The position numbers were made by a program, and so were the translations under genes. Shown one piece after another: positions 10,568 to 45,243 of a stretch of 64,000 bases of DNA (positions are counted from its first letter, which is position 1; each line of letters starts with the position of its first letter). The notes beneath the pieces were generated by a model. The model saw only the letters and a program-made list of their open reading frames with translations, made no database searches and was not told the DNA's origin. Origin of the DNA: Pseudobacteriovorax antillogorgiicola (lineage in GTDB: Bacteria > Bdellovibrionota_B > Oligoflexia > Oligoflexales > Oligoflexaceae); contig NZ_FWZT01000019.1 in the NCBI RefSeq assembly GCF_900177345.1, forward strand, positions 1-64,000, written 5' to 3'.

Positions 10568-10601
10568 GCACGAACTATGGATGGGGCCACAGCTCTATTC
10601 G

Positions 10602-18433: not shown

Positions 18434-19139
18434 AACTTGATCCCCTCTATTAAGTGCGCGACCTGATGCACACTGAAACCTTTTCCCCCGTTAAATATAA
18501 ATTCTTTAATGAAGCTCAAAAAACGATTTTAATTCCTTTTAGAAACAGTGTGATAATGCGAATTGATACGTTTAGTAATATTTGCTTAGGATCAGAAAAA
18601 AATTTTTTTATTCGCTATTTCGCTGCGGTAAGATTTGAAGGTTTGCAGAGATTAACCTGGTTTTATCAGAGAGTTCTAGCTCCATGGTTATCCAGATGCG
18701 AACCTTGTTCGTGATTTTGGGGAAATGTTCTCTTTCTGACTTTTGAGTCAGCTTTTAAAAAGGGTTCGGTGATTTGCCTGCTTCCGAGAGCCAATCATCT
18801 TCTGTCTCCGAAGCTAAATCCATTTAATGACTCACAAATTGAAATCTCTTGCCTAAAAAATACGCCACGGCAGATTCCTGATGGCCTGGCTTTTCAGGCT
18901 GGAAGCACGTTCGTCAAACGATAAGAACCAAAAAATAATAATATATTTAGCTATTTACAGATTGCTGATTATAGAGTCCTGGTGTACCCGAACCAGAATT
19001 ATCCATATCTATCTGAATTCAAAGGACATTAAATTTAGCGTAATATCTTATGGTTCGCATTGACATATGTCATATTAATATGCTACTTGGTCGTACCTCT
19101 TGGTTTCTATCAACATATTTTCAAGTTAGGAAACAAACT
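18434..19139. other. AT-rich intergenic region between divergent lipoprotein genes
   Basis: About 700 bp separating the leftward gene at 18433 and the rightward gene at 19140; it must carry both promoters. It is clearly AT-rich (for example 18590-18615 and 18928-18960). Short ORFs here lack ribosome sites and are not supported. No RNA gene recognised. Confidence 0.5.
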
Positions 19140-22100
19140 ATGAAGAGTGTTTATACTATATTTATCATATCCTTGCTTACTGCTGGAGGGTGTGAAACAA
19201 AGAAGTCTTCGGAACTCCCAACACAACAGGAACAACCCAACCCACAGATCGATCAAGTACCTGAAGTTAGTAAGGGTCGCCTGACAGAGCTGGTAGTTCA
19301 GGTTGGTCAAGAAAATCTCGTTCTCGACAATATCTTCTCTCAAGATACGGTTGATGAATACCAAGATTTGCAAGACTCTCTCAGAGCTGCGCAGAGAGTT
19401 CTAGGAAGCGATACAGCTAGCCAGAAAGATGTTGAGCAAGCCTATAGTCGATTGAAAAGTGCTTATGATGAATACCAAAAATCGATCCTCGATGGTGCTA
19501 AATCCCAACTCCAAAGCGAAATAGGGCAAGCAAAAACACTACTTATCGAAGCTTTGAGCAGTAGCAGCCATAATGAGCAGCAAATCGAAATGTTAACCGA
19601 GATCGCCCGACAGGCCGAGACCGTTGCGACAGAAGGTGATCTTGATGATATTAAAGCCGCTATTGAGAACGTGCAAAGAGCACGCATTGACTTCATAGGT
19701 AATGGCAAATCGGATGAAAAAGATGAAACAGAAGATGGTGGTGGGGCTAATCCATCTACACCAGATCGTTCTGCACTATCTGCAATTCTAAATAAGGCAG
19801 AATCAGAACTGCTGGTAGCTCAAGATCTTGCGAGTCATGAAAGTGTATCAATTGAAGACTTGGAAGAAGCTATTGAAGCAGCAAAGTCTCTCCTAGGTAA
19901 TGCTGAGGCCTCTGCCGAGCAAATTGAGGCATCTAAGGAAGCGCTTACTAGTTCTCTTGATGAGTTTCGTGGTGCTGAATTAGGTAAAATTGTTTGTACT
20001 CAAAATGAATCTGTGAAGGATTTTTGCTCTAGAATTCAACGTGCTGGTATTCTTTTTCAGTCGTCGGCTCAAAAAGTTCAAGTGCTCCTCTCAGGTGATG
20101 TCTTCAATCCTCAGTATAGCAAAACTCTGGTGAAGGTTTCTGGAATAACAAACAGAGGTCCATATGTGAGTGAGATGGTATCCCTGCCTGAAATCAACGA
20201 GTTATTGTCTGGGAAAAGCTCCCTAGTGCTCAGCTTGGGAGATGAAAAAGCAACTTTAAGCCTCTCTGCTCCCGCGCGTATTTGGACTATCGAAGGGCGC
20301 CTTGTAATAAAGGCAAAACTTATGATTGAAGCTGGAAATCTTCGAGTCAATTCGGTCTTCGAAGCTCCGATTTCAATCATCGATCAGGCTGCTGTGAAAA
20401 ATTTAAGCTTTGCCTCTTATAATGTGGAACACTTTAGATCGACATCTGGGGAAAGAAACTCGATCGCTCAATATCGATCCTCTGAAAGTAACTGGTCGGA
20501 CTTTCAGGAACTAAAAAAGCGAAAAATTGCCCATGCATTAGTGCTTTCTGGCAACCCTGACATTGTTGCTATGCAGGAGTTCGAAGATGAGGCTACTTTC
20601 CACGAGCTTAAACCTGAACTAGAAAAAATTGGATATCGATACTTTTCAGTTGGTGATCAGAAGAACTATAAGCTCGGTGAAAATGGTTTTATCGTCGATG
20701 TTGCGGATGATTCAACATCCAACATGACAACCGCTATCGCTAGTAAATTCCCCATAGACACATCCTTGGCGTCGGTAATCCCCACTCGCCTTCCGGACTC
20801 AAGGTCAGCTGGTATCAGAAACATTCAAGTAGCAGATGTTTTAGTTGCAGGGCAAAGGCTACGTGTTGTGAACTCTCATTGGTTAAGCCAGAAGGGTGGA
20901 GCTGATGGTAAAAGAGAACAACTTGCAAGAAAAATAGGGCAGGCAGTCTCTGATTGGAATCGAAAGTTCCCAGATCTTGATATTCTAGTGGCAGGGGACT
21001 TTAATGTTTCACTAGAACATATAGTCGGAGAGGATGCTAAAGAGCCCGAAATCGTAACATCCCTAGGAATTCTAGAAAGGGAACCCAGCTATCTTCATGG
21101 CAAGAGTAGCGGCTTGTACAACACATGGTTTGAATTGTCTAATAAGCGCTATAGTTCTGAGTATCGAGGGTATGGCTCCGCGCTGGATCACATCCTTGTA
21201 AACACCAGGCTTTATGATCAGAACGGTTTGAGTTATGTGGATAATAGTTTTCAAGTTGTCGGAGCTAAAAATTACGAACTAGCTCGCTGGATATTAAAAA
21301 ATCAAGTAGGGCTTCCGAAAAGGTGGATGGTTTCTAATAAAAATCCAAACTTTAAATATGACCATCTCGGTATTGGATATTCAGATCATTTACCGATTCG
21401 GATCGATCTGACTCTCGATTCAGTTGAAACCAGCACTAGCGGAAATGGATCTATTCTCCCTCCTTACAAGGAAGTCTACGAGCTTGATCAGTCAACTTGC
21501 GATGGCTATAGAGCGAAAAGCGATATCTCTATGGTAGGGGATACTTGGGTCGGTACGTGCTTAGAGTTAGACAATGAGCCTATCGATGATAGTGGCCAAA
21601 AGGCCATCATCATTGACCAAACTAGTGTCGGCTTCGCCATATTCGGGCGAGCAAATCAATCATCGCGAATAGAAAAAATTAAGGCAGCAATTCGATTCAC
21701 AAAAGGTAATAAGATTTCGGCGAGGGGTATCTTGATTCGAGATAGAGATGGGAGCCCAATCTTTGTTGTTGCTGACACGAAAGGGGTAAAGCTTCTTCAG
21801 GAAGATATTAAGTGTGGGACGCAACAGGACCCTTTAAACGTAAACGAAGTTTTTTCTTTGCCTTCCTCGACCGATTCTTTATTCGATTGTGTTGGTTTTG
21901 AGGGCCGCTTAGCATATTCGTCCATTAAAAATTATGACGCTTCTGGACTAACGAGACTAAGATTGAAAGATGCCAATAAAGAAGATGATAAAGTCATTAC
22001 TCTTGAACTAGATCATCAAGACTTCGTTCGTGTGTTTTTGGGTGGTCTTGAACTGGACGAAGCGGATGCCAAGAGTCGGCTTTCAAACTCTGGGGCGAAA

Positions 22101-23798
22101 TTTATAAAAGTAGTTGGGAAGATCACTCCTTACACCAAGAGTGGAGTGATGGTGAACGCTAGCAAAGCCTTAGGTTCTATTGAGATAGTTGATCCAGTTG
22201 ATCCAGTTGATCCAGTTGATCCAGTTGATCCAGTTGATCCAGTTGATCCAGTTGTAGAGAGTGATATAGATTTTGAAGTTCTTTTTACTAACCCGGTATG
22301 TCCACCACAAAAAATCGTCAGCTATGTTCCTCCATATTCTGGGGATAGAAAAGACTCAACGCTAGACTCTTTTCCGGCGCAACCTCAGCGAATTTTCGTT
22401 GACGGGATTCCGACTGTCGGTGGGGGAAGCAAAACTCATATCAAAGCAAACGTGAGATGTGGATCTCAAGATTTTGCAAACTCCACTTCCAGAGCTGAGG
22501 CTGGTCTTCGTGACAAAGATAGCCCACTTACACGTGTTGAGGAAATTATTGGGGCAGCAGAGAGTGGTGACAAGATATTCATTGCTAGTATGAGCTTTAG
22601 CAGCGGAGAAGTCATTGCAAAGCTTTGTGAAGCTCTTAGAGTTGGGGTCGAAGTTAAGATCTTTGTTGATTCTAACAATAGTGACCTCAACGATTTAAGG
22701 TCTTGTGACGTTAACGGTAAATATGAGCTTGTCTACTGGGATAAGTTTGGTGAAACTGGAACTCTTGCTCACGCAAAGACAATCATTGTTGAATCAGGTT
22801 CACATAATAGTGAGCTTTCTGATAAGCTACTCATTAGCTTTCAAAGTGCGAATGTTTCCTCTTCTGGAACATGGCGCAATCATGAAAACTGGAATTTTTT
22901 AAAGGTAGATAAAGATTCGAAGCTTGCGAAAAGGCATATTTGCTTTAGAGATTCGGTTTCTCCAATGGTTAGGCAACAAGGATCTGGAAGATCGAGTCAT
23001 AGCAGAGAAATCGAAGGCTTCACTAGTAAATTTTCTAAGTGCTTAGCAGAAGAGAATCTTGAGAACCAAGATGGCCTTTCTGTAAAGAGTTTCTTCATTC
23101 CATATTCCGCTGATAAAGCAGATATGCGGCCAGTATTAGAAAATGAACTCAAAAAAGCGGATGAGATTGACATTGCTATCCACCATCTCTCTATGAAGAG
23201 TATTATGTCTATTCTTGATCAAAGGTTGAGATCTAGTAACCCTCCGAAAGTCCGTCTCATCGCAGATGATGAACTTTTCTGGGTTGGTACAACCACTGGT
23301 AACTACGTCGATCTTGGTAATACTCGGCAATATGCTTATGACGATGCTACCAACTCATGCAAAAATGGAAAATCTACTGAGCAGCAGCGGAACATGAACT
23401 GTGCATTTATCTATGAGCATGAGTATTTGGGTGCGGGGAGCCGATTAGGAGTCAAGCAATTGGTAGAACGTTACAGTCAGAATCTTGATGAAAACGGTGA
23501 TCCAATCTTTGAGGTTCGCTACCTTGAATCAAATCACCGTAAGGAAGAAGGTGGCTATCAGCTTCATCACAATAAATACATGGTCTTCAGATATAACGAC
23601 GGACGTGGTCAGGTATTTACCGGAGCTGGAAACTTTACGAACGCGGCATTCAAGACTAACTTCGAGAACTACTATTTGATTGGGCTTGAGCAGGCAGTGA
23701 TTGATTTCACTAGCCAATTTGATTACGTGTTTAATGAATTAGCGACCAAGGAAGCAGACTTGCCGATTACCTGGCAGTATTCCGTTGAGGCAAACTAA
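19140..23798 (+). CDS. Lipoprotein joining an endonuclease/exonuclease/phosphatase domain to phospholipase D-like modules
   Basis: 1552 residues from ATG 19140, which gives a lipoprotein signal (TAGGC lipobox); 30 open codons upstream lack a signal. Residues 50-280: helical coiled repeats of FIVAR type. About 420-755: EEP nuclease fold with SYNVEHF, MQEFED (Glu), GDFNVS (Asp/Asn), LDHILVN and SDHLP (His). About 780-1015: unassigned beta-rich region. 1017-1037: seven Val-Asp-Pro repeats. 1100-1552: two PLD-like units with His1211-Ala-Lys1213 and His1477-Asn-Lys1479 plus GAGNFTNAAF; the Asp of each HKD motif is replaced. Predicted secreted DNase or phosphodiesterase on the cell surface. Monocistronic or with the lipoprotein gene 89 bp downstream. 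Confidence 0.85.
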   Translation: MKSVYTIFIISLLTAGGCETKKSSELPTQQEQPNPQIDQVPEVSKGRLTELVVQVGQENLVLDNIFSQDTVDEYQDLQDSLRAAQRVLGSDTASQKDVEQAYSRLKSAYDEYQKSILDGAKSQLQSEIGQAKTLLIEALSSSSHNEQQIEMLTEIARQAETVATEGDLDDIKAAIENVQRARIDFIGNGKSDEKDETEDGGGANPSTPDRSALSAILNKAESELLVAQDLASHESVSIEDLEEAIEAAKSLLGNAEASAEQIEASKEALTSSLDEFRGAELGKIVCTQNESVKDFCSRIQRAGILFQSSAQKVQVLLSGDVFNPQYSKTLVKVSGITNRGPYVSEMVSLPEINELLSGKSSLVLSLGDEKATLSLSAPARIWTIEGRLVIKAKLMIEAGNLRVNSVFEAPISIIDQAAVKNLSFASYNVEHFRSTSGERNSIAQYRSSESNWSDFQELKKRKIAHALVLSGNPDIVAMQEFEDEATFHELKPELEKIGYRYFSVGDQKNYKLGENGFIVDVADDSTSNMTTAIASKFPIDTSLASVIPTRLPDSRSAGIRNIQVADVLVAGQRLRVVNSHWLSQKGGADGKREQLARKIGQAVSDWNRKFPDLDILVAGDFNVSLEHIVGEDAKEPEIVTSLGILEREPSYLHGKSSGLYNTWFELSNKRYSSEYRGYGSALDHILVNTRLYDQNGLSYVDNSFQVVGAKNYELARWILKNQVGLPKRWMVSNKNPNFKYDHLGIGYSDHLPIRIDLTLDSVETSTSGNGSILPPYKEVYELDQSTCDGYRAKSDISMVGDTWVGTCLELDNEPIDDSGQKAIIIDQTSVGFAIFGRANQSSRIEKIKAAIRFTKGNKISARGILIRDRDGSPIFVVADTKGVKLLQEDIKCGTQQDPLNVNEVFSLPSSTDSLFDCVGFEGRLAYSSIKNYDASGLTRLRLKDANKEDDKVITLELDHQDFVRVFLGGLELDEADAKSRLSNSGAKFIKVVGKITPYTKSGVMVNASKALGSIEIVDPVDPVDPVDPVDPVDPVDPVVESDIDFEVLFTNPVCPPQKIVSYVPPYSGDRKDSTLDSFPAQPQRIFVDGIPTVGGGSKTHIKANVRCGSQDFANSTSRAEAGLRDKDSPLTRVEEIIGAAESGDKIFIASMSFSSGEVIAKLCEALRVGVEVKIFVDSNNSDLNDLRSCDVNGKYELVYWDKFGETGTLAHAKTIIVESGSHNSELSDKLLISFQSANVSSSGTWRNHENWNFLKVDKDSKLAKRHICFRDSVSPMVRQQGSGRSSHSREIEGFTSKFSKCLAEENLENQDGLSVKSFFIPYSADKADMRPVLENELKKADEIDIAIHHLSMKSIMSILDQRLRSSNPPKVRLIADDELFWVGTTTGNYVDLGNTRQYAYDDATNSCKNGKSTEQQRNMNCAFIYEHEYLGAGSRLGVKQLVERYSQNLDENGDPIFEVRYLESNHRKEEGGYQLHHNKYMVFRYNDGRGQVFTGAGNFTNAAFKTNFENYYLIGLEQAVIDFTSQFDYVFNELATKEADLPITWQYSVEAN
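22188..22250 (+). repeat. 9-bp tandem repeat inside the nuclease/PLD gene
   Basis: GTTGATCCA repeated seven times without change, encoding a Val-Asp-Pro linker between the middle region and the PLD-like part. Exact identity points to recent expansion by slippage; frame is kept because the unit is a multiple of three. Confidence 0.95.
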
Positions 23799-29145: not shown

Positions 29146-30396
29146 CTATCCGATCATTTCAAAGAATTCATCGACATCTTCACTACTATCTGGAAACTTC
29201 TGATCGAGATCGTCTGCATTGCTAAGTGTCATTAGGTTTTGCTTGATGCCAAATTGCTTTTTAACAAGTTCTGCATAGGTGCTGGCCTTCGCAAATCGAT
29301 CCTGGCTCTCTTGAAAAGATCTTTCGAACCAGGCCATGGCATTCTCATAATCTTCCTGGCGGAAGTAACCGTAACCGATGTTGAACATCACTTTGGTTTT
29401 ATCACGGCGGTTGTTTAAAAACGATAGTGCCGATTGGTAGTGTGTAATTCCATCGTCTATAGCGCCTGATTGCACCTTTGAAATCCCGATTGAATTCATG
29501 AGGCACGCAAACGGTTTTGAAATCGAAGGTGGTTTAGAGCAAAGAAATTCATCTAGATTTTGAGCGATAATTGCGCCGGCGTTTGCTGCTTCGCTTTGAC
29601 TATCAATTTCCAGCCCCCTAGCAAAAGTGTCCTTGGCTAGCTGAGACTCTTGCTCTTGAAGTTCTAGTTGGCCTAAGGTGCAGATCCGGCCTAGATTGTC
29701 CGGCGATATCTTATCGGCTGCTTTAAGGAACTGATAGGCTTTATGGTTTTCTTTCCGCTCCAATGCGATTTTGCCTAGATTGCTCAGTGCCCTGATATTC
29801 TTCTTATCTACAGCTAGGATTTTTTTCTGTACAGCTTCACAAGCGCTAAGCTGGTTTTTTTCTAAAAGAACGTCTGAAACCAGAAGGCCTAGTGGAATCG
29901 GATTAGGGGCTTTGTCCAGTAATTTAAGAATCGACTTAATTGCCTGAAGGTTCTCACAGCCTTTTTTGAAGGCTTTGTCAATAAGCCGAAAATTGGCTTG
30001 ATACCATTGGTACTCTTTATTCACTGCTTGAAGTTTAGTGCGAAATATGGATTGGGTGACCGGCTTCTGGAGGAAGTCCATCGAGAAGAACTCTTCCGTA
30101 AGCGTCATATCGTGTTCACTAATAACGCCCGAGAAAACCAAAATGGGAGTTAAAGCCGTTGCCTGTTTGGCTCGTATGCGGTTGACAATGCCAGCACCGG
30201 TGATCTGCCCTTTGGCTGACCAATCGACGATGAAGAGATCAAACTTTTCGGTATCCAGAGCCTTAGCGAGATCGTCTGGTGACTCGTATTCAGCGACGTC
30301 CTGGTATCCCTCTTCAAGACAGTATTGGGTAAGAATCTCTCGATAGTGGAGATCTGCATCCATAACTGCAACTCGTTTGCCCGTGTTGGTGGTCAC
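29146..30396 (-). CDS. Receiver domain plus TPR protein
   Basis: 416 residues. GTG 30396 start with GGAGG upstream. Residues 1-125: CheY-like receiver (phospho-acceptor Asp58 in LFIVDWS, DADLHYRE acidic pair, Lys in FLQKPVT). Residues about 150-400: tetratricopeptide repeats (ALSNLGKIALERKENHKAYQ, NIGYGYFRQEDYENAMAWFE). No output enzyme domain, so it likely acts through protein contacts when phosphorylated. Last gene of the leftward group with CheY and two CheX-like genes, after a 210-bp gap that contains a stem-loop. Confidence 0.88.
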   Translation of the reverse strand: MTTNTGKRVAVMDADLHYREILTQYCLEEGYQDVAEYESPDDLAKALDTEKFDLFIVDWSAKGQITGAGIVNRIRAKQATALTPILVFSGVISEHDMTLTEEFFSMDFLQKPVTQSIFRTKLQAVNKEYQWYQANFRLIDKAFKKGCENLQAIKSILKLLDKAPNPIPLGLLVSDVLLEKNQLSACEAVQKKILAVDKKNIRALSNLGKIALERKENHKAYQFLKAADKISPDNLGRICTLGQLELQEQESQLAKDTFARGLEIDSQSEAANAGAIIAQNLDEFLCSKPPSISKPFACLMNSIGISKVQSGAIDDGITHYQSALSFLNNRRDKTKVMFNIGYGYFRQEDYENAMAWFERSFQESQDRFAKASTYAELVKKQFGIKQNLMTLSNADDLDQKFPDSSEDVDEFFEMIG

Positions 30397-30564
30397 GGCC
30401 CCTCCGCATGGATTGAAAAAATTAGCCTCAAGTACGTCTGTTATTTCCCGTTCGGCGAAGGGCTTGGTAATTTGAAGTAAGCTTTCTTAGGGGGATTTTT
30501 CTGGGGAGTCACTGCAAGTTCACGTGGCCTTGTGGCCAGGTTATTTTTCCCTGAAAGTGGGAAA

Positions 30565-30589
30565 GCTCAAGAGTTTTGCACCCTTGAGC
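30565..30589 (-). terminator. Stem-loop between CheX-like and receiver-TPR genes
   Basis: GCTCAAG (30565-30571) pairs with CTTGAGC (30583-30589), loop 11, placed 18 bp after the stop of the CheX-like gene. Weak T-run; may attenuate rather than fully end transcription. Confidence 0.5.
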
Positions 30590-30606
30590 CGTTTGTACTA
30601 AATCAT

Positions 30607-31218
30607 TTAGAGGAAGTCTACGTCGCCGCCGTCGTCTTGCTCAGCAAGAGATGACGTGCTTTTCAGCATTTCTGTGACGCCGGCCCAATCGTGGATTTCT
30701 ACATCCCAACTACAGAGAATTTGGGCATTATCTAAGGTAAAGATCCAAAAGTCGTAAATCTCTTCTTCTTCATCCTCTTTAAATGCTAGAGGTTCTGAGA
30801 GGGCGGGCTTCTGGTTGGGAAGGTTGACGACCAGTTCACCAGATTCTTTCAGTGCTGAATAATTACTTTGAAGCCAAATCTTCAACGCACCAGCAGTAAG
30901 GTTACAGTATTCCCGGATGAAGTCGTGGCAAAGAAATGGCGAGATATTTTTACCCTTGAAGCTTGCCTTTTGAGAAGCAAAGGCTTTGGCGTCGTCAACT
31001 TGGTAGTACACCCGAAAGGTGAATATCAAGTCTTCAGATTCCACGATGATCTTAACCATCCAATCATCTTCTGACAGTGCTGGATGAGACTCCATTTCGA
31101 TGGCTTGGAATCCAGCCGCTGGGATTACGCTCTTGAGTCGGTTGGAGGCCGCATCCCGTAGGGCGCCCTTTAACATACTGATGTCGTTGCCATCATAAAG
31201 TTTTTTCGCTTCAGTCAC
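30607..31218 (-). CDS. CheX/CheC-like protein (second of three)
   Basis: 203 residues, GTG 31218 with AAGGA upstream. I place it in the CheC/CheX/FliY fold because it keeps the first half of the phosphatase motif D-x3-E-x2-N (Asp99, Glu103, Asn106), followed by LTAGALK and a VNLP turn at residue 134, a few residues later than usual. In CheX and CheC the Glu and Asn remove phosphate from CheY-P. The Asp/Glu-rich C-terminus (QDDGGDVDFL) is an oddity. Sits 11 bp after the previous CheX-like gene: one operon with cheY. Confidence 0.7.
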   Translation of the reverse strand: MTEAKKLYDGNDISMLKGALRDAASNRLKSVIPAAGFQAIEMESHPALSEDDWMVKIIVESEDLIFTFRVYYQVDDAKAFASQKASFKGKNISPFLCHDFIREYCNLTAGALKIWLQSNYSALKESGELVVNLPNQKPALSEPLAFKEDEEEEIYDFWIFTLDNAQILCSWDVEIHDWAGVTEMLKSTSSLAEQDDGGDVDFL

Positions 31219-31229
31219 AGCATGATTCC

Positions 31230-31715
31230 TTAAGCTGATTTATCGAATTTTACACTTTCAGAAATATCCGCCTGGAATGTAATTCCAAGTTGATACGTAC
31301 CGTTGCTAAACACATATGTCTCAGGTTCTGTTTTGACGTCGTCGGCTTTCTCAAAGGGACTATTTTGAGAGCTTGGAGGATTCAAAGTGGTGTCTAAGTC
31401 GAAGGACAAGAGGTCGTTTTTGATGTTGCCGAGAACCCGATTAACAATTTCACCAACCCAATCCATCAAATCTTCCTCGACAATTTCGTCGCCGTACTTA
31501 CGTTCCGGGTGGCTGTGCTTTAGTGCTGCTGGGTCCACATTGATGATCAAGTAGCCGTTGATGTGATTGCCTTTGACCTTGATCCGAGAAGAATAACAAT
31601 TGGTGAAATCGAAGTCAGCATTCTCTTCAAAGACCATATCTTCGTCAAATCGATTTTTAAAAAAATCATAAAAACCATCCACGATGATTTGTTTTAACTT
31701 GGGGTTATAGCTCAC
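31230..31715 (-). CDS. CheX-like phosphatase-family protein (first of three)
   Basis: 161 residues from GTG 31715, chosen because AGGAG lies five bases before it; the frame is open to TTG 31739, which overlaps the cheY stop. It carries the full CheX/CheC motif D-x3-E-x2-N-x21-P: Asp85, Glu89, Asn92 and Pro114, inside MDWVGEIVNRVLGNIKNDL. Predicted to dephosphorylate a CheY-type receiver; the cheY gene immediately upstream is the natural partner. Cytoplasmic. Divergence of the flanks means phosphatase activity is inference. Confidence 0.8.
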   Translation of the reverse strand: MSYNPKLKQIIVDGFYDFFKNRFDEDMVFEENADFDFTNCYSSRIKVKGNHINGYLIINVDPAALKHSHPERKYGDEIVEEDLMDWVGEIVNRVLGNIKNDLLSFDLDTTLNPPSSQNSPFEKADDVKTEPETYVFSNGTYQLGITFQADISESVKFDKSA

Positions 31716-31729
31716 GCTGTCTCCTCTCG

Positions 31730-32098
31730 TTATGCGCAAAATGTATCGAGTAGGGTGTTCACCGTCTTGGGGTCTGCTGGTTTGATGATCCAGCCTGTGA
31801 CTCCCAACTCTTTGGCTCGTTTCATCACGTCTTGAGTTGCTTCGCTTGTTAGCATAACAACGGGTAGATTTTGGAATTTGTCCTGTTTTTTTACAGCCTC
31901 AAGAAACTCAATGCCATTCATTTCGGGCATGTTTACGTCGCAAAAGACGAGCTTGATGTCTTCCTTTTCTTCCAGTTTGGCAAGGGCTTCCTTGCCATTT
32001 TGAGCTTCGATGGTGAGGATACCATGGTTGTGAACAACCCGAACAACTTCTTTTCGTGCAGTTTTTGAATCATCAACGATAAGAACTTTTGTAGCCAT
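31730..32098 (-). CDS. CheY-like single-domain response regulator
   Basis: 122 residues, one receiver domain: VLIVDDSKTARKEV (acidic pocket), Asp54 in FCDVNMPEMNG, Thr in MLTSEA and Lys in IIKPADP. These match chemotaxis CheY closely. It has no output domain, so it acts by binding a target. First gene of the leftward operon with CheX-like genes; divergent from the CheA-like DISM kinase gene, which is the likely phosphodonor. The 166-bp gap between them must hold both promoters. Confidence 0.9.
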   Translation of the reverse strand: MATKVLIVDDSKTARKEVVRVVHNHGILTIEAQNGKEALAKLEEKEDIKLVFCDVNMPEMNGIEFLEAVKKQDKFQNLPVVMLTSEATQDVMKRAKELGVTGWIIKPADPKTVNTLLDTFCA

Positions 32099-32264
32099 GA
32101 TGTGTTCCGATCTCGTAGAAAATTGAACCCTTATTAATGGTACTTGCGTATCCTGTTCTAGATCAAGTCCTATAGCAACCTACTTGATGAATCATTCAGA
32201 AAAATGAAAATCTTCCGATATCAGATTGAGAAGAATCTTGTATCTTTGGTGAAATAGAAAAAAT

Positions 32265-34913
32265 ATGAACATTGTCTTTCGATGCTTTGTTTGTACCCTG
32301 GTACTTGCAGAGCTGTCATTAGCAGAAAATCAAAGCAACACTCCAGGTGTCCTCGATCTACGGGGGCATGACTGGCAAAAAAATGATTTGCTTGCGATCT
32401 CTGAGAATTGGCATTACTACGACAAGCAGCTCATCGATTCAAGTAGTCTTAACCAGGCTAGCGACCCTGAAACTGTAGATGCCCAGGTTGTGATGGCTGA
32501 TGTGACTCCCGGTGGGATTGATGGCTATGGGACACTTCACCTTAGAGTAATCTTGGATGCACCACGCCAACTCACATTTTGGACTGCTGAAATTTTCTCT
32601 AGTCATAAAATTATAGTCGATGATGTGATCTTGAGTGAGGGCGGCATTGTAGGAACCTCAGCCACCGAGGAAGTGCCTGGGCAGCGGGAGTCCTTGTTGA
32701 CTTTTACTCCGAAGCAGGCCACCTTCGATATTTTTATCCAGAACTCTAATTTTGCGACTCATAGGCGCTTCTCAGCTTTGGAAACTTACTTAGGTCTTGA
32801 GCCAGCGATCATCAAGAAGCGGAAGGGCGATATCATCACCGATGCATTCTTGGTCGGTGCGATTGTGATGATGGGTTTTTATCATCTGATCCTGTACCTT
32901 TTGAGGCGTGAAGAACGGGCACCCCTTTGGTTTGGTCTTTTCTGCTTGATTATCGGCGTCCGTACATTTGTCCGTTCTAATGGGCTTTGGCACCACCATG
33001 TATTCGAGACTCCTGATATCATCTGGAGTTCGAAGGTTGAATACATGACTTTTGGACTCGGAGTACTTACCTTTATAAGATTTTTTAACCTGTTATATAA
33101 TAAGGAAGTCTGGCGCTGGATCGTTCAGCTCGGTGTATGGACGTCGTTGGCTTTTACAGCCTTGGCCTTAGTCACCTCGCCAAAGATATTTGGTCAATCC
33201 CTCCCTTACTTTCAACTGGTTGTTGTGTTTATTCTACTAAGCGTTGTGACAGCCCTGGTTAATGTGGTGAGAAAGAAACGAGATGGTAGCCTGATATTCC
33301 TCGTGGGTTTCAGTGCCTTGGGCTTCGGAGTCGTCAACGACATTCTTCTATCTCAAAATAGTGCCGCCATCAATGCAACAATTGTTCATTGGGGACTCCT
33401 TGGTTTTATCCTTTCTCAGTCAGCTATTCTATCCAAGCGCTTTGCTGCTGACTACCGGCAGCTACGGGTCGCCGAGGGAAAAATTAGAGTCTTAAACGAG
33501 AATCTAGAGCGCAAGGTCGAAGAGAGAACCCAAACGATCCGGACCATATATGATAACGTCAAGACAGGCTTCTTACGGGTTGATCATGATGGACACGTCC
33601 TTGAAGGTTTCACTGCATCTTGCGATGACCTTTTCCACAAAAAAGTGGAATCCGGAACCAGCCTTGCTACGATCTTAGAACTCGATCCGCGAGAAACAGA
33701 ACATTTTAGTCTTGCGATAACCCAAATATTTGATGATATGCTCCCTGAAGAGGCAGCATTGAGTCAGGTTGCACGTCGCTATATTCTGCACCACGGGGCC
33801 GTCGACTTAGAAGGAGCGGTCATTCGTGACGGGGAAAATAGCGTCGAATCGATTCTCTATAGCGTGTCTGATGCTGGTCCGGTGCTTCGTGCCGAGAAAG
33901 AAGCCCATTTGAATCAATGCCTCTTGAAAATCGTGCGGGAAAAGGAAGCCTTCAAATCGTTCGTAATCGATGCTGAGGAACGGGTTGATCTAGCCTGTAG
34001 TCATCTGAAGGATAAAGATCGTAGCCATTTCAAAATGGTTCTTCATACACTTAAGGGTAACTTTTACTCGTTCGGCTTGGAAGATATAGGGTCATATATC
34101 CACGAGCTTGAAAGTCTGCTCCATCCTCATGTGGATGACGTCCGTGAAATCCAATCCATGTTACAAAGCTTTATGAATAAGCATGCAGAAGTGATAGGCT
34201 TGGATGGCAAGCTTCACGGTGAAAAATCCTATGCCCTATCGGAAGGAAGTATTGCGCTTTTACGTGATCGTCTCGAAGCAGAAAAGGCCGACGTCAAAAT
34301 TATCAAGATTGTGGATTACTGGTTGAAAGACATCCAGAAAGTAACGGCTTTCTCTCTGCTTTCTCATTTTAGAGAGGTGGTGAAACACCTCGCTTTGCAG
34401 CTGGGTAAAGAGGTTGACTTCAAAATTATCGGTGGCGATATTCTCGTCGACCCCCAGCTAGTACAGAATATTATTCATAATCTGATTCATCTAGTGCGGA
34501 ATGCTTTGGATCATGGCATCGAATTTCCTGATGAGCGCGGCGACAAGGCACCTGTTGGCAGTCTAACTATCAAAGTCGAACAACACGACGACGAGATTCG
34601 GCTGGTAGTGGAAGACGATGGCAAGGGCCTCGATCAAGAGAAAATTAAAAGCAAAGCTATAGGTAGAGGGCTGATGTCCCAGCTTGAATTGGATAAAATG
34701 AACGAAGATGAAATTCTCAAATTGATATTTGACAATGGTTTTTCAACCCGCGATCGCGTGACCGAGATCTCAGGCCGTGGGTTTGGTATGGGAGCATTAC
34801 TAACTGCAGTGCAAGAGATTGGAGGAGATATCCAAGTGGCCTCGACAAGAGGGCAGGGAACTCGCTTCACTCTGAAGCTGCACCAAGATGGCATGAAGTT
34901 AAAGTCAGCGTAA
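32265..34913 (+). CDS. 7TMR-DISM sensor kinase with CheA-like HPt and ATPase
   Basis: 882 residues. Signal peptide, then an extracellular 7TMR-DISMED2-type sensory domain (about 25-185), seven membrane segments (about 190-395), a coiled coil (EGKIRVLNENLERKVEERTQ), a PAS-like stretch (430-540), an HPt domain with His594 in LHTLKGNFYSFGL, and a CheA-type ATPase (N-box VRNALDHGIEFPDERG, DDGKGLD, GRGFGMGAL). The HPt-to-ATPase order is that of CheA, but there is no CheW-like P5 domain. A DISM receptor fused to a CheA-like core is uncommon. It likely phosphorylates the nearby CheY and receiver-TPR proteins. Confidence 0.88.
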   Translation: MNIVFRCFVCTLVLAELSLAENQSNTPGVLDLRGHDWQKNDLLAISENWHYYDKQLIDSSSLNQASDPETVDAQVVMADVTPGGIDGYGTLHLRVILDAPRQLTFWTAEIFSSHKIIVDDVILSEGGIVGTSATEEVPGQRESLLTFTPKQATFDIFIQNSNFATHRRFSALETYLGLEPAIIKKRKGDIITDAFLVGAIVMMGFYHLILYLLRREERAPLWFGLFCLIIGVRTFVRSNGLWHHHVFETPDIIWSSKVEYMTFGLGVLTFIRFFNLLYNKEVWRWIVQLGVWTSLAFTALALVTSPKIFGQSLPYFQLVVVFILLSVVTALVNVVRKKRDGSLIFLVGFSALGFGVVNDILLSQNSAAINATIVHWGLLGFILSQSAILSKRFAADYRQLRVAEGKIRVLNENLERKVEERTQTIRTIYDNVKTGFLRVDHDGHVLEGFTASCDDLFHKKVESGTSLATILELDPRETEHFSLAITQIFDDMLPEEAALSQVARRYILHHGAVDLEGAVIRDGENSVESILYSVSDAGPVLRAEKEAHLNQCLLKIVREKEAFKSFVIDAEERVDLACSHLKDKDRSHFKMVLHTLKGNFYSFGLEDIGSYIHELESLLHPHVDDVREIQSMLQSFMNKHAEVIGLDGKLHGEKSYALSEGSIALLRDRLEAEKADVKIIKIVDYWLKDIQKVTAFSLLSHFREVVKHLALQLGKEVDFKIIGGDILVDPQLVQNIIHNLIHLVRNALDHGIEFPDERGDKAPVGSLTIKVEQHDDEIRLVVEDDGKGLDQEKIKSKAIGRGLMSQLELDKMNEDEILKLIFDNGFSTRDRVTEISGRGFGMGALLTAVQEIGGDIQVASTRGQGTRFTLKLHQDGMKLKSA

Positions 34914-34923
34914 CGGAAACACT

Positions 34924-36081
34924 ATGGCTATTATTCCAAATGACTTAATTGCACTTTATGAACTATTTGCCTCGTTCGAATCAGCGGCGCTATTCACTGA
35001 TGACCTCATAGAAGAGTTGCCACTGATTTGTATTCTAACCAATGTGGAAGGGCAGATCATTCGAATTAATAGCTATGGTGAGGAGTACTTCTATCGTAAA
35101 AAATATGACGTTGTCGGCACAAACCTTACTCAATTGGTCTCCGAAAATGCGCGGCAGAGTTTCTCTGATTATATCGAAGGCTTGAAACATGATCCCAGCC
35201 TCAGCCTATCTTACATTGAGCAAAACGAAGAGGAATATATCAACTGGAAATCTCTGGTAATACGTAGCCCGAACGCTCGAACGCCTATCGTTGTAGTCTT
35301 GGGAGATGATGTAACGGAAACGGTGACCCTAAAATCTAGTGTTCTCAGCGCTCGAACGGTTCAAAAAGCTCTATTACCCGTATCTTTCGAAGTTGAAGGG
35401 GTTACCCTTCGTTGGGTTTATGAATCTGCTGAAGCTACCGGTGGCGACTGGTTTGACTATCTTTTTGATGAAGAACGGAATCGCCTGATTGTGTGTATTG
35501 CAGATGTTAATGGTCATGGAACCGCGGCAGCGATGGTTACTGGCTGTGTCGCTGGCTTATTTCGTGGGGTATTGAAAACACTTCTAGCGCCGGAGTTTGA
35601 TGGCAAACGTTTGGATTTGTTTGCAAGCAGTTTGAACAATGGGATCTACGATATCCTGCAAAGAGCCAATCGCTTACTGACCCTGGCAATCATCGAAATT
35701 GATCTTAACACTGGTGATGGTCACTACGTGAGCTGTGGTCATCCCCGTGTGATGCTCTTTGGTAAAAACAAAGTAAAAGGACTACTGAATCGAAATGGGC
35801 CCATTGGTGTGACCGAGAACCAAAAGTTCCAGGGTACTGCCTTCCATTTGCCCGAGGACGAGTCACTTTTTCTTTATACGGATGGACTCATAGAAAATGA
35901 AGATATCAGTGGCAAGCGTTTGACCTCTCGTGACCTGCGTTTGATTCTAGGCGGTCGCAATGTGCCTGATCTCAAATACAATAAATTGCGCCACTTCGTG
36001 AAGAGTCTGGACTGTGTGAGCCCTTTCAATGATGATGTGGCTTTTGTTATCGTAACCCGAGATCCAAAGGAAGGTGGGTAA
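34924..36081 (+). CDS. PAS domain plus SpoIIE/PP2C-type phosphatase
   Basis: 385 residues, starting 10 bp after the kinase gene. Residues 22-130: PAS domain (ILTNVEGQIIRINSYGEEYF). Residues 165-380: PPM/SpoIIE phosphatase with metal-binding Asp residues in TGGDWFDYLFD, IADVNGHGTAAAMVT, LYTDGLIEN and FNDDVAFVIV. Such proteins remove phosphate from Ser or Thr of partner proteins, typically STAS-domain regulators; no STAS gene is present here. Likely controlled by the DISM kinase or by binding through PAS. Confidence 0.9.
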   Translation: MAIIPNDLIALYELFASFESAALFTDDLIEELPLICILTNVEGQIIRINSYGEEYFYRKKYDVVGTNLTQLVSENARQSFSDYIEGLKHDPSLSLSYIEQNEEEYINWKSLVIRSPNARTPIVVVLGDDVTETVTLKSSVLSARTVQKALLPVSFEVEGVTLRWVYESAEATGGDWFDYLFDEERNRLIVCIADVNGHGTAAAMVTGCVAGLFRGVLKTLLAPEFDGKRLDLFASSLNNGIYDILQRANRLLTLAIIEIDLNTGDGHYVSCGHPRVMLFGKNKVKGLLNRNGPIGVTENQKFQGTAFHLPEDESLFLYTDGLIENEDISGKRLTSRDLRLILGGRNVPDLKYNKLRHFVKSLDCVSPFNDDVAFVIVTRDPKEGG

Positions 36082-36084
36082 CTT

Positions 36085-36624
36085 GTGAGTGCAGTTAATC
36101 CAAAATTCCAAGATTTCCTAGTAGAAACGTCGAGTAACTCTCTCAAGAGTTTTACCAATCTGCAATTCGAAACCACCATCCTTGGTGTCGATGATTTGCC
36201 ATTCTATCAGTACCTGGCGACTATGGTCATCGGCTCTTCAGAGAACAAGGTGCTGTTGACGGTGCACTTTTGGTCTGATGATGCATCGGTTTTAACGAAG
36301 GATCCTAGGAAGATTCTTGATAAATCAGTAAAGCTTGACATTTTCAAAGAATATCTCAATATCTACTCTAGTAAGATCAAGAACCAACTGAACTTGCAGG
36401 GCCTGGACTTGGGAATTAGCTTGCCATTTATCGCTCCAGGCTACCAAAGCTACTTTATTTTAGATACCAACGCTTACACCCAACAGTTCTGCTGGGAATT
36501 AAAGCGCAACAAAACACGTATTGGCTTTGGCTGCGGTTTAGCATTTAAAGAAACGGACGTTCTCAATCGAATCGCAGAGTCGGAAACTGGTAGCGAAGAG
36601 TTTCACGACCTGGAAATGTTATAA
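36085..36624 (+). CDS. CheX-like phosphatase-family protein (third of three)
   Basis: 179 residues, GTG start 36085 just 3 bp after the SpoIIE gene, so translationally linked. It contains D-x3-E-x2-N-x21-P exactly: Asp85, Glu89, Asn92, Pro114, within DIFKEYLNIYSSKIKNQL and LGISLPFIAPG. The numbering equals that of the CheX-like protein at 31230 with its revised start. By family, a CheY-P phosphatase; here perhaps a brake on the kinase-driven circuit. Not previously obvious from overall sequence, so activity remains inference. Confidence 0.78.
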   Translation: MSAVNPKFQDFLVETSSNSLKSFTNLQFETTILGVDDLPFYQYLATMVIGSSENKVLLTVHFWSDDASVLTKDPRKILDKSVKLDIFKEYLNIYSSKIKNQLNLQGLDLGISLPFIAPGYQSYFILDTNAYTQQFCWELKRNKTRIGFGCGLAFKETDVLNRIAESETGSEEFHDLEML

Positions 36625-36660: not shown

Positions 36661-37434
36661 ATGTTTGGAAAGACGGTACTTGTTGGATTTGGGTTGATTT
36701 TAGCGAGTGGGGGATGGGCTGCAGACGAAAAGGCAGATGGCTCCTGTGAGGGTGCTGGGCCCCAGTCACCGCGGGACATTACCATTGAGAAAGGGAGCAA
36801 TTCTAGCCGGTGGGCCTTTGCACCAGAATATAAAGATATGAATCTCTGTAACATTCACTTCCATCGTTTTGCCGAGCATAAATCACCCGCATTTGGAAGG
36901 CTCGGTGGCGAAGATGAGAATCGCGGCTATATCTGTGAAAACACGCGTCCTAAGCTCAAGCTGTCAGAGAGAAGCGAGGATGGCAAAGGTTGCAAAGGTG
37001 TGATTGCTGGTGACACGGTTGAAGTTCACTGGGTCTTTAGCTCCTGTAATGTCAAGCCTGGTGCGACTCTTAACTCTTGTTTCAATCCAAAGTGTAAGAA
37101 CCCCACCCTACGGGTTGAAGCGCGAGTCTTTTATCTCACCGATGGAAAAGCCGGGGAGCTAGACTTCGCCAACTATGATGTCAAGGGCAATCAGCCCAAG
37201 AGTCTTCCAAAATCCAAGGAATTGGTGCGTTACCTTGGTTCAACGACTGGTCCGAAGTATACAGAAGAGTCATGTTCGCCATTTCAGGTGAGCTGGAGTG
37301 TAGGTGCCGAGTGTTCGCCTTTGAGCATGGCTAGTCTGGATCGATGGTGTGAAAATAACGTATTTAAAGAGGATCACGCCCACGGTGTGAGAAACATCGT
37401 ACGCAAGGAAGAGCTTCTTTCGCCGATTAATTAA
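36661..37434 (+). CDS. Delta-class carbonic anhydrase
   Basis: 257 residues with a signal peptide (MFGKTVLVGFGLILASGGWA cleaved before AD), so periplasmic. Family blocks: GAGPQSPRDI, FAPEYKDMNLCNIHFH (zinc ligands His66 and His68), AEHKSPAF, and VEVHWVFSSC with the third ligand His123. Catalyses CO2 hydration to bicarbonate. The class was first known from diatoms and dinoflagellates, with bacterial members found later; many Cys suggest disulfides. It follows the CheX-like gene by 36 bp and could share its transcript. Confidence 0.88.
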   Translation: MFGKTVLVGFGLILASGGWAADEKADGSCEGAGPQSPRDITIEKGSNSSRWAFAPEYKDMNLCNIHFHRFAEHKSPAFGRLGGEDENRGYICENTRPKLKLSERSEDGKGCKGVIAGDTVEVHWVFSSCNVKPGATLNSCFNPKCKNPTLRVEARVFYLTDGKAGELDFANYDVKGNQPKSLPKSKELVRYLGSTTGPKYTEESCSPFQVSWSVGAECSPLSMASLDRWCENNVFKEDHAHGVRNIVRKEELLSPIN

Positions 37435-41997: not shown

Positions 41998-44900
41998 TTG
42001 AAGTACTGGCTATTTATACTAGTGTTGATACCTTGGCTCCTGTCCTGTGGGAGAGGGCGCCTGGACTTGGAGCTCAAGGGTGGCCAAGTTGATTTGTCTG
42101 GACAGACATTCGAACGATCTGTTCGATTTCAAGGGCAGACCAGGGCGCTGATCGGTGAATTGGCGAACCCCAGCGATATTCTTAAGAATCCGGAAATGGG
42201 CTCACTTCAGAGCCTGAACACCAAGCTGCCAGGGGCTAGGCCTATGGGTAGCTTTATGATTCGCCTGAAGAACCTGGACCCGAAAGGCCGAGGTCTAGGG
42301 CTTCATCTTCGGGCAGATTCGGCCTACCGCTTGTACTTGCTAGATCTTAAGGAAGGTCGAGTTAATGGAATTGGCTCTTGGGGAACTGTAGCTGCTCAAA
42401 AAGGCCGGGAAAGACCTCAGCTTGGCACGGGGCTGTTTCGCTTACCAATTCCCTCCCAGGGGGCCGGAGATTATATTTTGCTGATCCATGTCTCAAACTT
42501 CCACTTTAGTGCTGGCGGTATTTGGGAAAACCCAGAGATCGGCGTCTATCATCAGATGCAGAAACAGCACATGGCTGAATCACATAGCCAAGTCGCAGTG
42601 ATCGCAATGTGCTTCATCATGGGGCTTTATAATTTATTTATTCATTTTAGACGGCGGGATGATCTGTCGACTCTATTTCTAGCTGCTTTCTGTCTACTAC
42701 AATCGTTTCGCCTCTTTGCCATGAGCTTCTTACTTGGAGATCTTTTACCAAACATGACGAGCAGCCAGTATGAGTTCTTCCGTCGCATGGAGTTTCTACC
42801 CTTCAATCTCTCCGTCGCTGCCTTCGTCTCCTTCGCTCAAAATAATTATCGCCGCTACATTAAGCTTTCAGTCTCTATCGGGGTGTGGGTCTTTGCTGCT
42901 GTCTACAGCTTAGTCGTCCTAGGGAGTTCTGCGAAGTTTTATCGTCCGATCCTAGAGTATACCAACCCAGTTCTAGTCCTTGTAGCTCTTTACGCAGTGT
43001 TTGGGATTATAAGAGCAGCGAAAGATGGATTTGTTGGTGCTATAACTTTAGCTATGGGAATCCTCGTCGTAATCGCCGCATCATTCGTGGATTTAGCAGT
43101 GACTATGGGTTTGTTAAGCGTGCCGTTTATCATGGGCTATGGTATTGTGGGCCTGATTCTAGCCCAAGGCTTTGTAGTGGCTAAGCTCTTCGCTAGTGCT
43201 TATGAAAGAACCATCCACCTCAATCAACAGCTCAAGGAACAAGAAGAGGCTCGGACTCTGTTCTTTCATAATGTGTCTCATGAACTTCGGACACCACTCA
43301 ACGGCATTATTGGGTTTTCGAAACTTGTGGTTGAAGGAGGTTACGGTACTGTTTCCGATAAAGTTAAAGAGCAGGTTGGTAAGATCGAGCGTCTGGCTCA
43401 ATCCCTGATGCTACAAGTGAATACGATACTCGATATTGCTAAATCAAGGCGAGGTCAGATGGAGCTACGATCTTCCATTATATCCCTCAATGAGCTAGTG
43501 AATGATACTAAAAGCTTGGGCGAGGGGCTGACTCATAAATACGATACAGCATCCTTTGAGATCGAAACCAGTTGGAACTGGAATGAAAGCACATCCTTTG
43601 TTACTGATAAGGAAAAAGCCTTTGCTATCATAAGAAATCTGATTGGCAATGCTTTTAAGTTTGCAAAGTCGGGGCAGCCAAATCAGGTGAGAGTCTCATT
43701 CGCGTTGGATGCAGCCCATGCCTTCCATATCGAAGTGTCGGATACTGGTCTTGGAATTCCTGAAGAAAGTGTCCCCCATATATTTGAAGAGTTTAAGCAG
43801 GTCGATCAGGGTGCCCGACGATCCTTTGAGGGCACGGGCCTGGGGCTCGCCATGGTAAAAGAGATTCTTAAGCTCATGGGTGGCGATATTCGTGTGACAT
43901 CAAAACCTGGAGAAGGCTCAACGTTCAAAGTGATTATTCCGGAAAATAATAAGGTTGTTTTACAAACAACTAGCCAAGAAATCGATGAGGTTAAGACAGT
44001 TGTCTCGGGGCTGGAAGAACCTTCTGAAGATACCCATCACTTAGAAATGATTGCTAGGCTGGAAAAGCATAATGATGGCCAGGTGTTTATTATCGATGAC
44101 AATGATGTGAACTGTGAAGTGCAGGCTGATATTCTCCGCAACTGTGGTTTTCATGTTAGGTATGCCACCAATGGGTATGAAGGCATCCGCATGATGGAGA
44201 TTGATCCTCCAGATGTTTTGCTTCTTGATTTGATGATGCCTAATTTTTCTGGCGAAGATGTATTGCGCAATGTGAAACTACATCAGAGACTGCGAGAGGT
44301 GCCCGTAATTCTATTGACGGCGCGGGCATCAAAGGGTGATATGCTTCATGGCCTGGATATTGGAGCCGATGACTATCTGCCAAAACCGGTAGACAGTCAG
44401 GAACTCATATTAAGAGTCCATAACCTATTAGAACGGCAAAAAACGAGCAAACACTCAGGAGAGCGGGAAGCTTTGGAGGCGGCCCAAGCGATGTTTGCGC
44501 CTGTAAATCCTGCAGTGCCGCAACCTCCAGGTTTTGAGCTTAGCCACTACTTTAAAGCGGCTAGCGACATGAGTAGGGACTGGTCGCGGGTTGCCTATCA
44601 TGCCGATAGCAACGAACTCTTTCTCTTCATGGGAGATGTTGGGGCTTCGGGAATCAATGCTTCATTTATCACAGTTGGTGCTGCTGCAGCCTGTCGGGCA
44701 GCACTTGATATTGTTAAGCAAGCGGGAGCCAGTATCGGCTTATCACAGAAACTAATTCTTCTAGCTAAAGCTATCAACGAGGCGCTGATAGATGGGAATC
44801 AGGATGTAAGGCGATACATGTCTGTTGCTATTGTGGGTCTGGATATCAAGACGGGTCAGGGTTGGTATCTGAATGCTGGCCATCATGGGGTCTTTTTACA

Positions 44901-45243
44901 TAGTGGTGAAGGAGATACCCTACTCAGCAAGCCAGGTGACCCACTTGGGGTTACGAGTAAGCCTCAGTTTGGTATTTTGGATTTCCAAATGACTCATCGG
45001 GATTACCTCATGATATATACTGATGGGCTTATGGAAAATCGAGGGCCGGAAGGCCGTAAACTAACGATCGGTGATATCAAAGATAGCCTTGCTGAAGGTG
45101 GTTCCGCGGAAACCATGAAGGAACACCTCCTTGAACGAGCAAATTCACTGTGGCGGAATCGCAAAGGCAATGACGATTATGCCTTTTTCATCCTTCAATG
45201 CGTTCAGCAGCTGCAATCACGCAGACTTGATAAAACGGATTAA
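41998..45243 (+). CDS. 7TMR-DISM hybrid: histidine kinase, receiver and PP2C phosphatase in one chain
   Basis: 1081 residues. TTG start at 41998 with GAGG upstream; lipoprotein-like N-terminus (PWLLSCGRG). Extracellular DISM domain (about 30-190), seven membrane spans (195-400), HisKA with His428 (NVSHELRTPLNGI), HATPase (NLIGNAFKFA, DTGLGIPEE, GTGLGLAM), receiver with Asp744 (LLLDLMMPNFSG), and a C-terminal SpoIIE/PPM domain (LFMGDVGASGINASF, IYTDGLMEN, GNDDYAFF). Sensing, phosphorelay and protein-phosphatase output are joined in one protein. The first PPM Asp block is weaker than in the gene at 34924 (SRDWSRVAYHA). Confidence 0.88.
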   Translation: MKYWLFILVLIPWLLSCGRGRLDLELKGGQVDLSGQTFERSVRFQGQTRALIGELANPSDILKNPEMGSLQSLNTKLPGARPMGSFMIRLKNLDPKGRGLGLHLRADSAYRLYLLDLKEGRVNGIGSWGTVAAQKGRERPQLGTGLFRLPIPSQGAGDYILLIHVSNFHFSAGGIWENPEIGVYHQMQKQHMAESHSQVAVIAMCFIMGLYNLFIHFRRRDDLSTLFLAAFCLLQSFRLFAMSFLLGDLLPNMTSSQYEFFRRMEFLPFNLSVAAFVSFAQNNYRRYIKLSVSIGVWVFAAVYSLVVLGSSAKFYRPILEYTNPVLVLVALYAVFGIIRAAKDGFVGAITLAMGILVVIAASFVDLAVTMGLLSVPFIMGYGIVGLILAQGFVVAKLFASAYERTIHLNQQLKEQEEARTLFFHNVSHELRTPLNGIIGFSKLVVEGGYGTVSDKVKEQVGKIERLAQSLMLQVNTILDIAKSRRGQMELRSSIISLNELVNDTKSLGEGLTHKYDTASFEIETSWNWNESTSFVTDKEKAFAIIRNLIGNAFKFAKSGQPNQVRVSFALDAAHAFHIEVSDTGLGIPEESVPHIFEEFKQVDQGARRSFEGTGLGLAMVKEILKLMGGDIRVTSKPGEGSTFKVIIPENNKVVLQTTSQEIDEVKTVVSGLEEPSEDTHHLEMIARLEKHNDGQVFIIDDNDVNCEVQADILRNCGFHVRYATNGYEGIRMMEIDPPDVLLLDLMMPNFSGEDVLRNVKLHQRLREVPVILLTARASKGDMLHGLDIGADDYLPKPVDSQELILRVHNLLERQKTSKHSGEREALEAAQAMFAPVNPAVPQPPGFELSHYFKAASDMSRDWSRVAYHADSNELFLFMGDVGASGINASFITVGAAAACRAALDIVKQAGASIGLSQKLILLAKAINEALIDGNQDVRRYMSVAIVGLDIKTGQGWYLNAGHHGVFLHSGEGDTLLSKPGDPLGVTSKPQFGILDFQMTHRDYLMIYTDGLMENRGPEGRKLTIGDIKDSLAEGGSAETMKEHLLERANSLWRNRKGNDDYAFFILQCVQQLQSRRLDKTD

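Follow-up and report, generated by a model that had tools for sequence, protein, structure and literature searches.

What would CheX-type phosphatases be doing in a gene cluster that has its own sensor kinase and none of the usual chemotaxis genes around it? CheX phosphatases are known as parts of chemotaxis. The locus that raises the question lies at positions 29146–36624 of a 64,000-nucleotide stretch, called the window here, that comprises positions 1–64,000 of contig C19 (NZ_FWZT01000019.1) of Pseudobacteriovorax antillogorgiicola, whose genome assembly holds 7.28 Mb in 68 contigs. Two divergent operons with seven open reading frames (ORFs) make up the locus, and all seven were verified in the content and orientation given by an earlier note that was made from the sequence alone. 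Among the 19 window proteins scanned with Pfam (19050–48369) none has a CheW, CheR, CheB, MCP or flagellar domain, in agreement with that note. Our reading, to which we give a probability of about 0.6, is that the locus encodes a CheW-independent His-Asp circuit in which a canonical CheX and two divergent CheX-like proteins, named CheXL here, would remove phosphate from a CheY.

CheX and CheXL proteins

The canonical CheX (P0003; 31230–31715, minus strand) scores 39.6 bits with the Pfam CheX model, against a curated cut-off of 27, and has both E89 and N92. Its GTG start at 31715, proposed in the earlier note, is supported by GAGAGGAG about 7 nucleotides upstream. CheXL-1 (P0002; 30607–31218, minus strand) and CheXL-2 (P0007; 36085–36624, plus strand) gave no Pfam CheX match when each was scanned singly. 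That they are not CheX-like, since Pfam misses them, was ruled out by profile and fold comparisons. The two proteins were searched in 56 related genomes, yielding two overlapping sets of proteins of about 200 residues, and 19 of 29 family members scanned alone reach Pfam CheX at E ≤ 0.01. The CheXL profile matches CheX or CheC-like entries of the PDB at E values from 1.1e-6 to 0.0037 (3iic, 1.1e-6; 6vpw, 0.0012; 1squ, 0.0035), and its hhalign comparison with an alignment headed by the window CheX gives a probability of 95.8 and E 8.1e-9. Structure prediction, a check set beforehand, gave confident AlphaFold (AF2) models for both proteins (mean predicted local distance difference test score 87.4 for CheXL-2 and 84.5 for CheXL-1), and the top Foldseek matches of both are CheX or CheC-like; CheXL-1 finds its best PDB match in CheX from the Borrelia CheX-CheY complex (3hzh), and CheXL-2 matches CheX 3hm4 at E 7.7e-8. 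The VIA comparison, made for CheXL-2 only and covering the families displayed in it, gives Z 17.2 with 3iic (root-mean-square deviation 2.4, 147 residues) and Z 16.6 with 3hzh (2.3, 141 residues). By profile and predicted structure, both are CheX-fold proteins of one subfamily, and the three CheX-like proteins of the earlier note stand, one by Pfam and two by profile and fold.

The residues singled out in that note were all found in place: D85-E89-N92-P114 in both CheX and CheXL-2 and D99-E103-N106 in CheXL-1, where the signature is completed by P134. The identical numbering in the first two is partly coincidence, since they belong to separate subfamilies and CheXL-2 clusters with CheXL-1. Both CheXL proteins have the E-x2-N pair of catalytic acid and Asn; in the CheX acid-amide mechanism, as set out in the relevant passages of PMC3035606, the Asn orients a water and the acidic residue bridges the receiver Lys. 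E103, N106 and P134 are invariant in a 29-sequence CheXL alignment, and the corresponding Glu, Asn and Pro are invariant in 94 of 94 CheXL (44/44 in set 1 and 50/50 in set 2). Set 1 comes from the genomes that were used to build the family model A1, CheXL below 40 bits and repeated sequences having been removed before the counts; set 2 is independent of the construction of A1, and CheXL below 35 bits were removed from it. CheXL-1 itself scores 185.9 bits with A1 in its own genome. Predicted structures and alignments together show the CheX fold with its acid-amide catalytic pair intact in CheX and CheXL alike.

CheXL occurs in Oligoflexia and Bdellovibrio relatives. Within the phylum, 19 of 58 genomes give matches at E ≤ 1e-3, some of them weak cross-matches to CheX, and 14 of the 58 have one of at least 60 bits (table read by eye). 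Of 368 genomes from the phylum to which one Bdellovibrio-type genome belongs, 29 contain a match at E ≤ 1e-8. Scanning 84,980 species for a single 10-residue pattern, which divergent members escape, gave 19 loci, mostly in records whose names refer to Oligoflexia, Pseudobacteriovorax, Bdellovibrio or relatives. The Pseudobacteriovorax genome encodes six CheXL (two at the locus, one each on contigs C11 and C2, and two on C4), along with ordinary CheX proteins. One of the C4 copies (348224–348817; 9722–10588 in locus L114) is a 288-residue protein with an extended N-terminus and no PAS partner nearby, and it is probably the one A1 member with a borderline PilZ match (E 0.0092). Two other loci (L165 on G185:C61, cut by the contig end, and L166 on G186:C4) have three tandem CheXL genes each, and no kinase, CheY or PAS partner was detected in the 5 kb around them.

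The C-terminus of CheXL is an acidic, low-confidence stretch that closes with G-[DE]-[ILV]-[DE]-F-L-COOH. CheXL-1 ends in GGDVDFL (codons of GDVDFL at 30610–30627, minus strand) and CheXL-2 in HDLEML (36604–36621, plus strand); the canonical CheX has no such tail. In set 1 an [FIML]L terminus occurs in 37 of 44 CheXL versus 11 of the 908 other ORFs in these loci, and the strict pattern in 26 of 44 versus none of the 908; in set 2 an [FIML][LF] terminus occurs in 41 of 50 versus 10 of 380. The compared members are mostly only 14–30% identical to the window proteins, so the conserved tail is not due to closeness. Short acidic peptides of similar build, with I/V/L-D/E before F/L-L and carried at the tip of a flexible tether, are the CheZ C-terminal motif and the FliM N-terminus, which both bind CheY. 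The FliM of the same genome begins MSQVLSQSEVDALLSAV, and its SEVDALL bears a fair likeness to the GDVDFL of CheXL; the FliM N-terminus is treated as a CheY-binding peptide on a flexible tether in the part of PMC7355467 that concerns it. The CheXL tail differs in being one residue shorter and in forming the very C-terminal end of a protein with the CheX fold, the likeness being one of sequence alone. By this analogy with FliM and CheZ, and less firmly than for the fold, docking of a receiver domain is the probable role of the tail.

Kinase, CheY and the helix-PAS partner

The left operon begins with the CheY gene (P0004; 31730–32098, minus strand; Pfam Response_reg 89.3 bits), whose product has D9, D10, D54, T84 and K106. 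A divergent intergenic region (32099–32264 in the ORF map) separates it from the kinase gene (P0005; 32265–34913, plus strand). Promoter-like sites were at shuffle level in a promoter scan (8 versus 8.8), and a terminator scan found 9 terminator-like sites versus 6.2 in shuffles (standard deviation 2.6).

The kinase joins a 7TMR-DISM sensor to an Hpt domain (Pfam 29.6 bits; His594, verified within HTLKG) and a CheA-type HATPase. Residues 698–872 match the NCBIfam CheA ATPase region at 1.6e-52, the sole CheA region matched. There was no Pfam CheW match at E ≤ 1, the chain ending shortly after the ATPase, and no Pfam H-kinase_dim match at E ≤ 1, though a divergent short form of the latter remains conceivable. 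In the CheA survey of PMC10542144, as far as its relevant passages go, four of five canonical domains were present in all CheA examined; by that yardstick a protein without CheW and without a Pfam-detectable dimerization domain is not a CheA. The kinase is, on its domain matches, CheA-like in its ATPase and Hpt only, and of the "DISM-CheA kinase" of the earlier note these two parts stand while the CheW and dimerization domains are missing. It has 17 matches in its own genome (from 16 of 133 candidates scored), with further DISM-Hpt-ATPase genes on contigs C20, C13, C8, C6, C3, C18 and C15; the 13 CheW matches of the genome are on other contigs and do not coincide with these genes. Elsewhere in the window (41998–45243, plus strand) a 1081-residue chain of 7TMR-DISM, HisKA, HATPase, receiver and SpoIIE PP2C domains unites a sensor kinase with its own Ser/Thr phosphatase output.

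Ten nucleotides after the kinase gene follows that of a PAS-PP2C phosphatase of the SpoIIE family (P0006; 34924–36081, plus strand; Pfam SpoIIE 107.3 bits), and CheXL-2 follows after another 3. The phosphatase has the motifs GGDWFD, ADVNGHG, TDGLIE and NDDVAF, which we take to be the metal-site Asp motifs of its PP2C domain. It resembles in this the PAS-PP2C phosphatases of SpoIIE-type partner switching and differs in that no STAS or anti-sigma partner was found among the Pfam-scanned neighbours, no genome-wide STAS search having been made. Its N-terminal part belongs with a family of proteins encoded beside CheXL genes, which share a helix L-x-A-S-H-E-I...L-E-x-S-K before the PAS domain and vary in their C-terminal part (Hpt-ATPase kinase, PP2C, or nothing). 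The window protein fits their alignment and scores 109.6 bits with the partner model A6 in the genome search; by sequence it is a member of this helix-PAS family. The earlier note had taken the phosphatase as a separate output, a view given up here because its N-terminal helix-PAS belongs to the CheXL-partner family. When the helix-PAS part was searched in 11 whole genomes, 24 of 27 matches adjoined a CheXL gene; of the remaining three, two are at contig ends (G003:C67 and G003:C385) and one is weak, with no CheXL (G027:C97). Since most of the 23 partner genes behind A6 come from these same 11 genomes, what the test shows is that further partners are scarce; it is not an independent discovery of them. 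The partner start overlaps the CheXL stop by 4 nucleotides in 16 of 44 cases in set 1 (hand count) and 12 of 50 in set 2.

The neighbourhood of CheXL was then surveyed in relatives, most of which are fragmentary assemblies whose contig ends restrict neighbour counts; complete ±5 kb neighbourhoods were available for 22 of the 44 CheXL in set 1 and 26 of the 50 in set 2, and one CheXL (L081), missed by the simple ORF caller, was left out of the set 1 neighbourhood counts. A stand-alone CheY is near 18 of the 22 in set 1, a kinase or PP2C near 18 and a PAS partner near 21; CheY is near 18 of the 26 in set 2 and a kinase near 16. The PAS counts used a model grown from the window PAS-PP2C for set 1 and a model of the set 1 partner N-termini for set 2. 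The link to CheY and a kinase is general; that to PAS and PP2C is strong in set 1 and looser in set 2. The CheY association exceeds receiver density even at the upper bound of the latter (P 9e-6 and 4e-4), although these P values, like those for the tail, count sequences rather than independent events and ignore kinship.

The order of the whole locus is kept in one relative (G001), a second genus, where an RND-type efflux gene is followed by CheXL, CheX, CheY, a divergent DISM kinase, PAS-PP2C, CheXL and an amino-acid ABC transporter, the flanks being named by likeness to the Pfam-scanned neighbours in the window. The association anticipated by the earlier note thus recurs in relatives. On a short contig of G003, a third genus, the genes for the DISM kinase, CheY and CheX keep this divergent layout, and a PrmA-like gene comes next in place of CheXL. 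The receiver-TPR protein that closes the left operon (P0001; 29146–30396, minus strand; Pfam Response_reg 43.6 bits plus TPR, with a complete receiver) was counted in the earlier note as part of the locus; it is present in the window and missing at the orthologous place in G001, which led us to drop it as a core member. Its C-terminus, SSEDVDEFFEMIG, resembles the FliM and CheZ CheY-binding peptides, and it is among the 7 of 908 non-CheXL ORFs with a loose FliM-like pattern in the last 12 residues; a shared docking tail was rejected since the C-termini of other receiver-TPR proteins differ. Another candidate, the module CheYs as a dedicated clade, was also dropped. Among 72 stand-alone receivers compared, those nearest to the window CheY were nearly all module CheYs; the whole-genome search found equal ones away from CheXL.

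Directly 3′ of CheXL-2 (36661–37434, plus strand) lies a gene for a delta-class carbonic anhydrase (Pfam CA_like 166.6 bits) whose N-terminus is hydrophobic and signal-peptide-like; the gene is missing at the counterpart place in G001. Further upstream in the window (19050–23798, plus strand) is a 1582-residue protein with an endonuclease/exonuclease/phosphatase domain and PLD-like domains.

Phosphatase circuit, adaptor pair or flagellar drain

In the circuit that we favour, the DISM receptor-kinase would sense a membrane or periplasmic cue and autophosphorylate His594 through its CheA-type ATPase, and the phosphate would pass to Asp54 of the divergently encoded CheY. CheX and the two CheXL would then hydrolyse CheY-phosphate by the acid-amide mechanism, with the acidic tail of CheXL perhaps docking the receiver domain. 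The likely output enzyme is the PAS-PP2C, which would dephosphorylate a Ser/Thr-phosphorylated target, possibly of STAS type. Several points weigh against this reading. Its phosphotransfer and phosphatase steps are predictions from sequence and fold. In set 2 no PP2C is near any of the 26 CheXL and a PAS partner is near only 10; the strict tail pattern holds in only 12 of the 50 (2 of 380 others), many ending in FF. G003 has the kinase, CheY and CheX layout without an adjacent CheXL, and CheYs equally close to that of the window (70–95 bits) occur on contigs C1, C34 and C24, away from CheXL. The genome is flagellated (FliM present) and has chemotaxis-type CheW genes, and the CheXL tail resembles a CheY-binding FliM peptide, so the locus, which the earlier note read as unrelated to motility, may yet be linked to it.

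The strongest rival, which we hold as a possible though clearly less probable reading, is that CheXL is mainly an adaptor that binds CheY-phosphate and the PAS partner and reports the phosphorylation state to the kinase or PP2C, with hydrolysis as a timer and CheXL plus helix-PAS as the true functional pair. The near-constant PAS neighbour in set 1, the 4-nucleotide overlaps in both sets, a partner family seldom seen away from CheXL and an output domain that varies while the pair stays constant all speak for it. However, the invariance of the catalytic Glu and Asn in all 94 CheXL exceeds the needs of binding alone, the pairing is much looser in set 2, and CheXL-1 in the window has no directly adjacent PAS gene. 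It is unlikely that the locus instead feeds the flagellar system, its CheX and CheXL draining CheY-phosphate from the motility pool in response to a stress sensor: FliM and the 13 CheW matches in the genome, the classical role of CheX as a chemotaxis phosphatase and the likeness of the CheXL tail to the CheY-binding N-terminus of FliM fit such a role, but a CheY and a kinase are encoded in the locus itself, che and flagellar genes are absent from the Pfam-scanned neighbours, and CheXL elsewhere is mostly near its own kinase and CheY. A chance grouping of common signalling genes, conceivable in a signalling-rich 7.3 Mb genome with at least 150 receiver domains and many DISM and Hpt kinases, is very improbable given the layout and flanks conserved in G001, a CheY association beyond receiver density (kinship ignored) and the 24 of 27 partner-PAS matches that adjoin CheXL.

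Relation to known CheX systems

CheXL shares with CheX (PF13690; Borrelia 3hzh; Thermotoga 1squ and 1xko) its fold and genomic link to CheY, and most members share the D-x3-E-x2-N-x21-P signature. It differs in its acidic tail, which closes with a conserved peptide, in frequently escaping the Pfam CheX model and in pairing with PAS enzymes and CheW-less kinases, not chemotaxis genes. The kinase likewise has the Hpt and CheA-type ATPase of CheA, and differs from it by its fused 7TMR-DISM sensor, the lack of CheW and the lack of a Pfam-detected dimerization domain. A kinase is also tied to a CheC/CheX phosphatase in the CheA-CheC/CheX fusions of Leptospirae, according to the passages of PMC10542144 on them; there the fusion is to a flagellar-class (F1) CheA, whereas here the genes are separate and the receptor kinase is CheW-less. 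No description of such a module was found in the open-licence full-text literature, a search outside which most subscription papers lie.

More tentatively, CheXL and helix-PAS may make up a novel two-component output class, in which a CheX fold would act as reader and eraser of CheY-phosphate, its tail docking receivers, and would switch the enzyme linked to the PAS domain, be it a His kinase or a Ser/Thr phosphatase. Such a device would need neither CheW nor receptor arrays nor flagella and would have multiplied in Oligoflexia and in Bdellovibrio relatives. Clear targets for assay are the docking of the tail and the phosphatase activity. Some relatives of predatory bacteria have several copies of a CheX-type off-switch beside stand-alone sensor kinases and phosphatases, not beside chemotaxis genes; if our reading is true, CheXL circuits show how chemotaxis parts have been rebuilt into general signalling in these bacteria.

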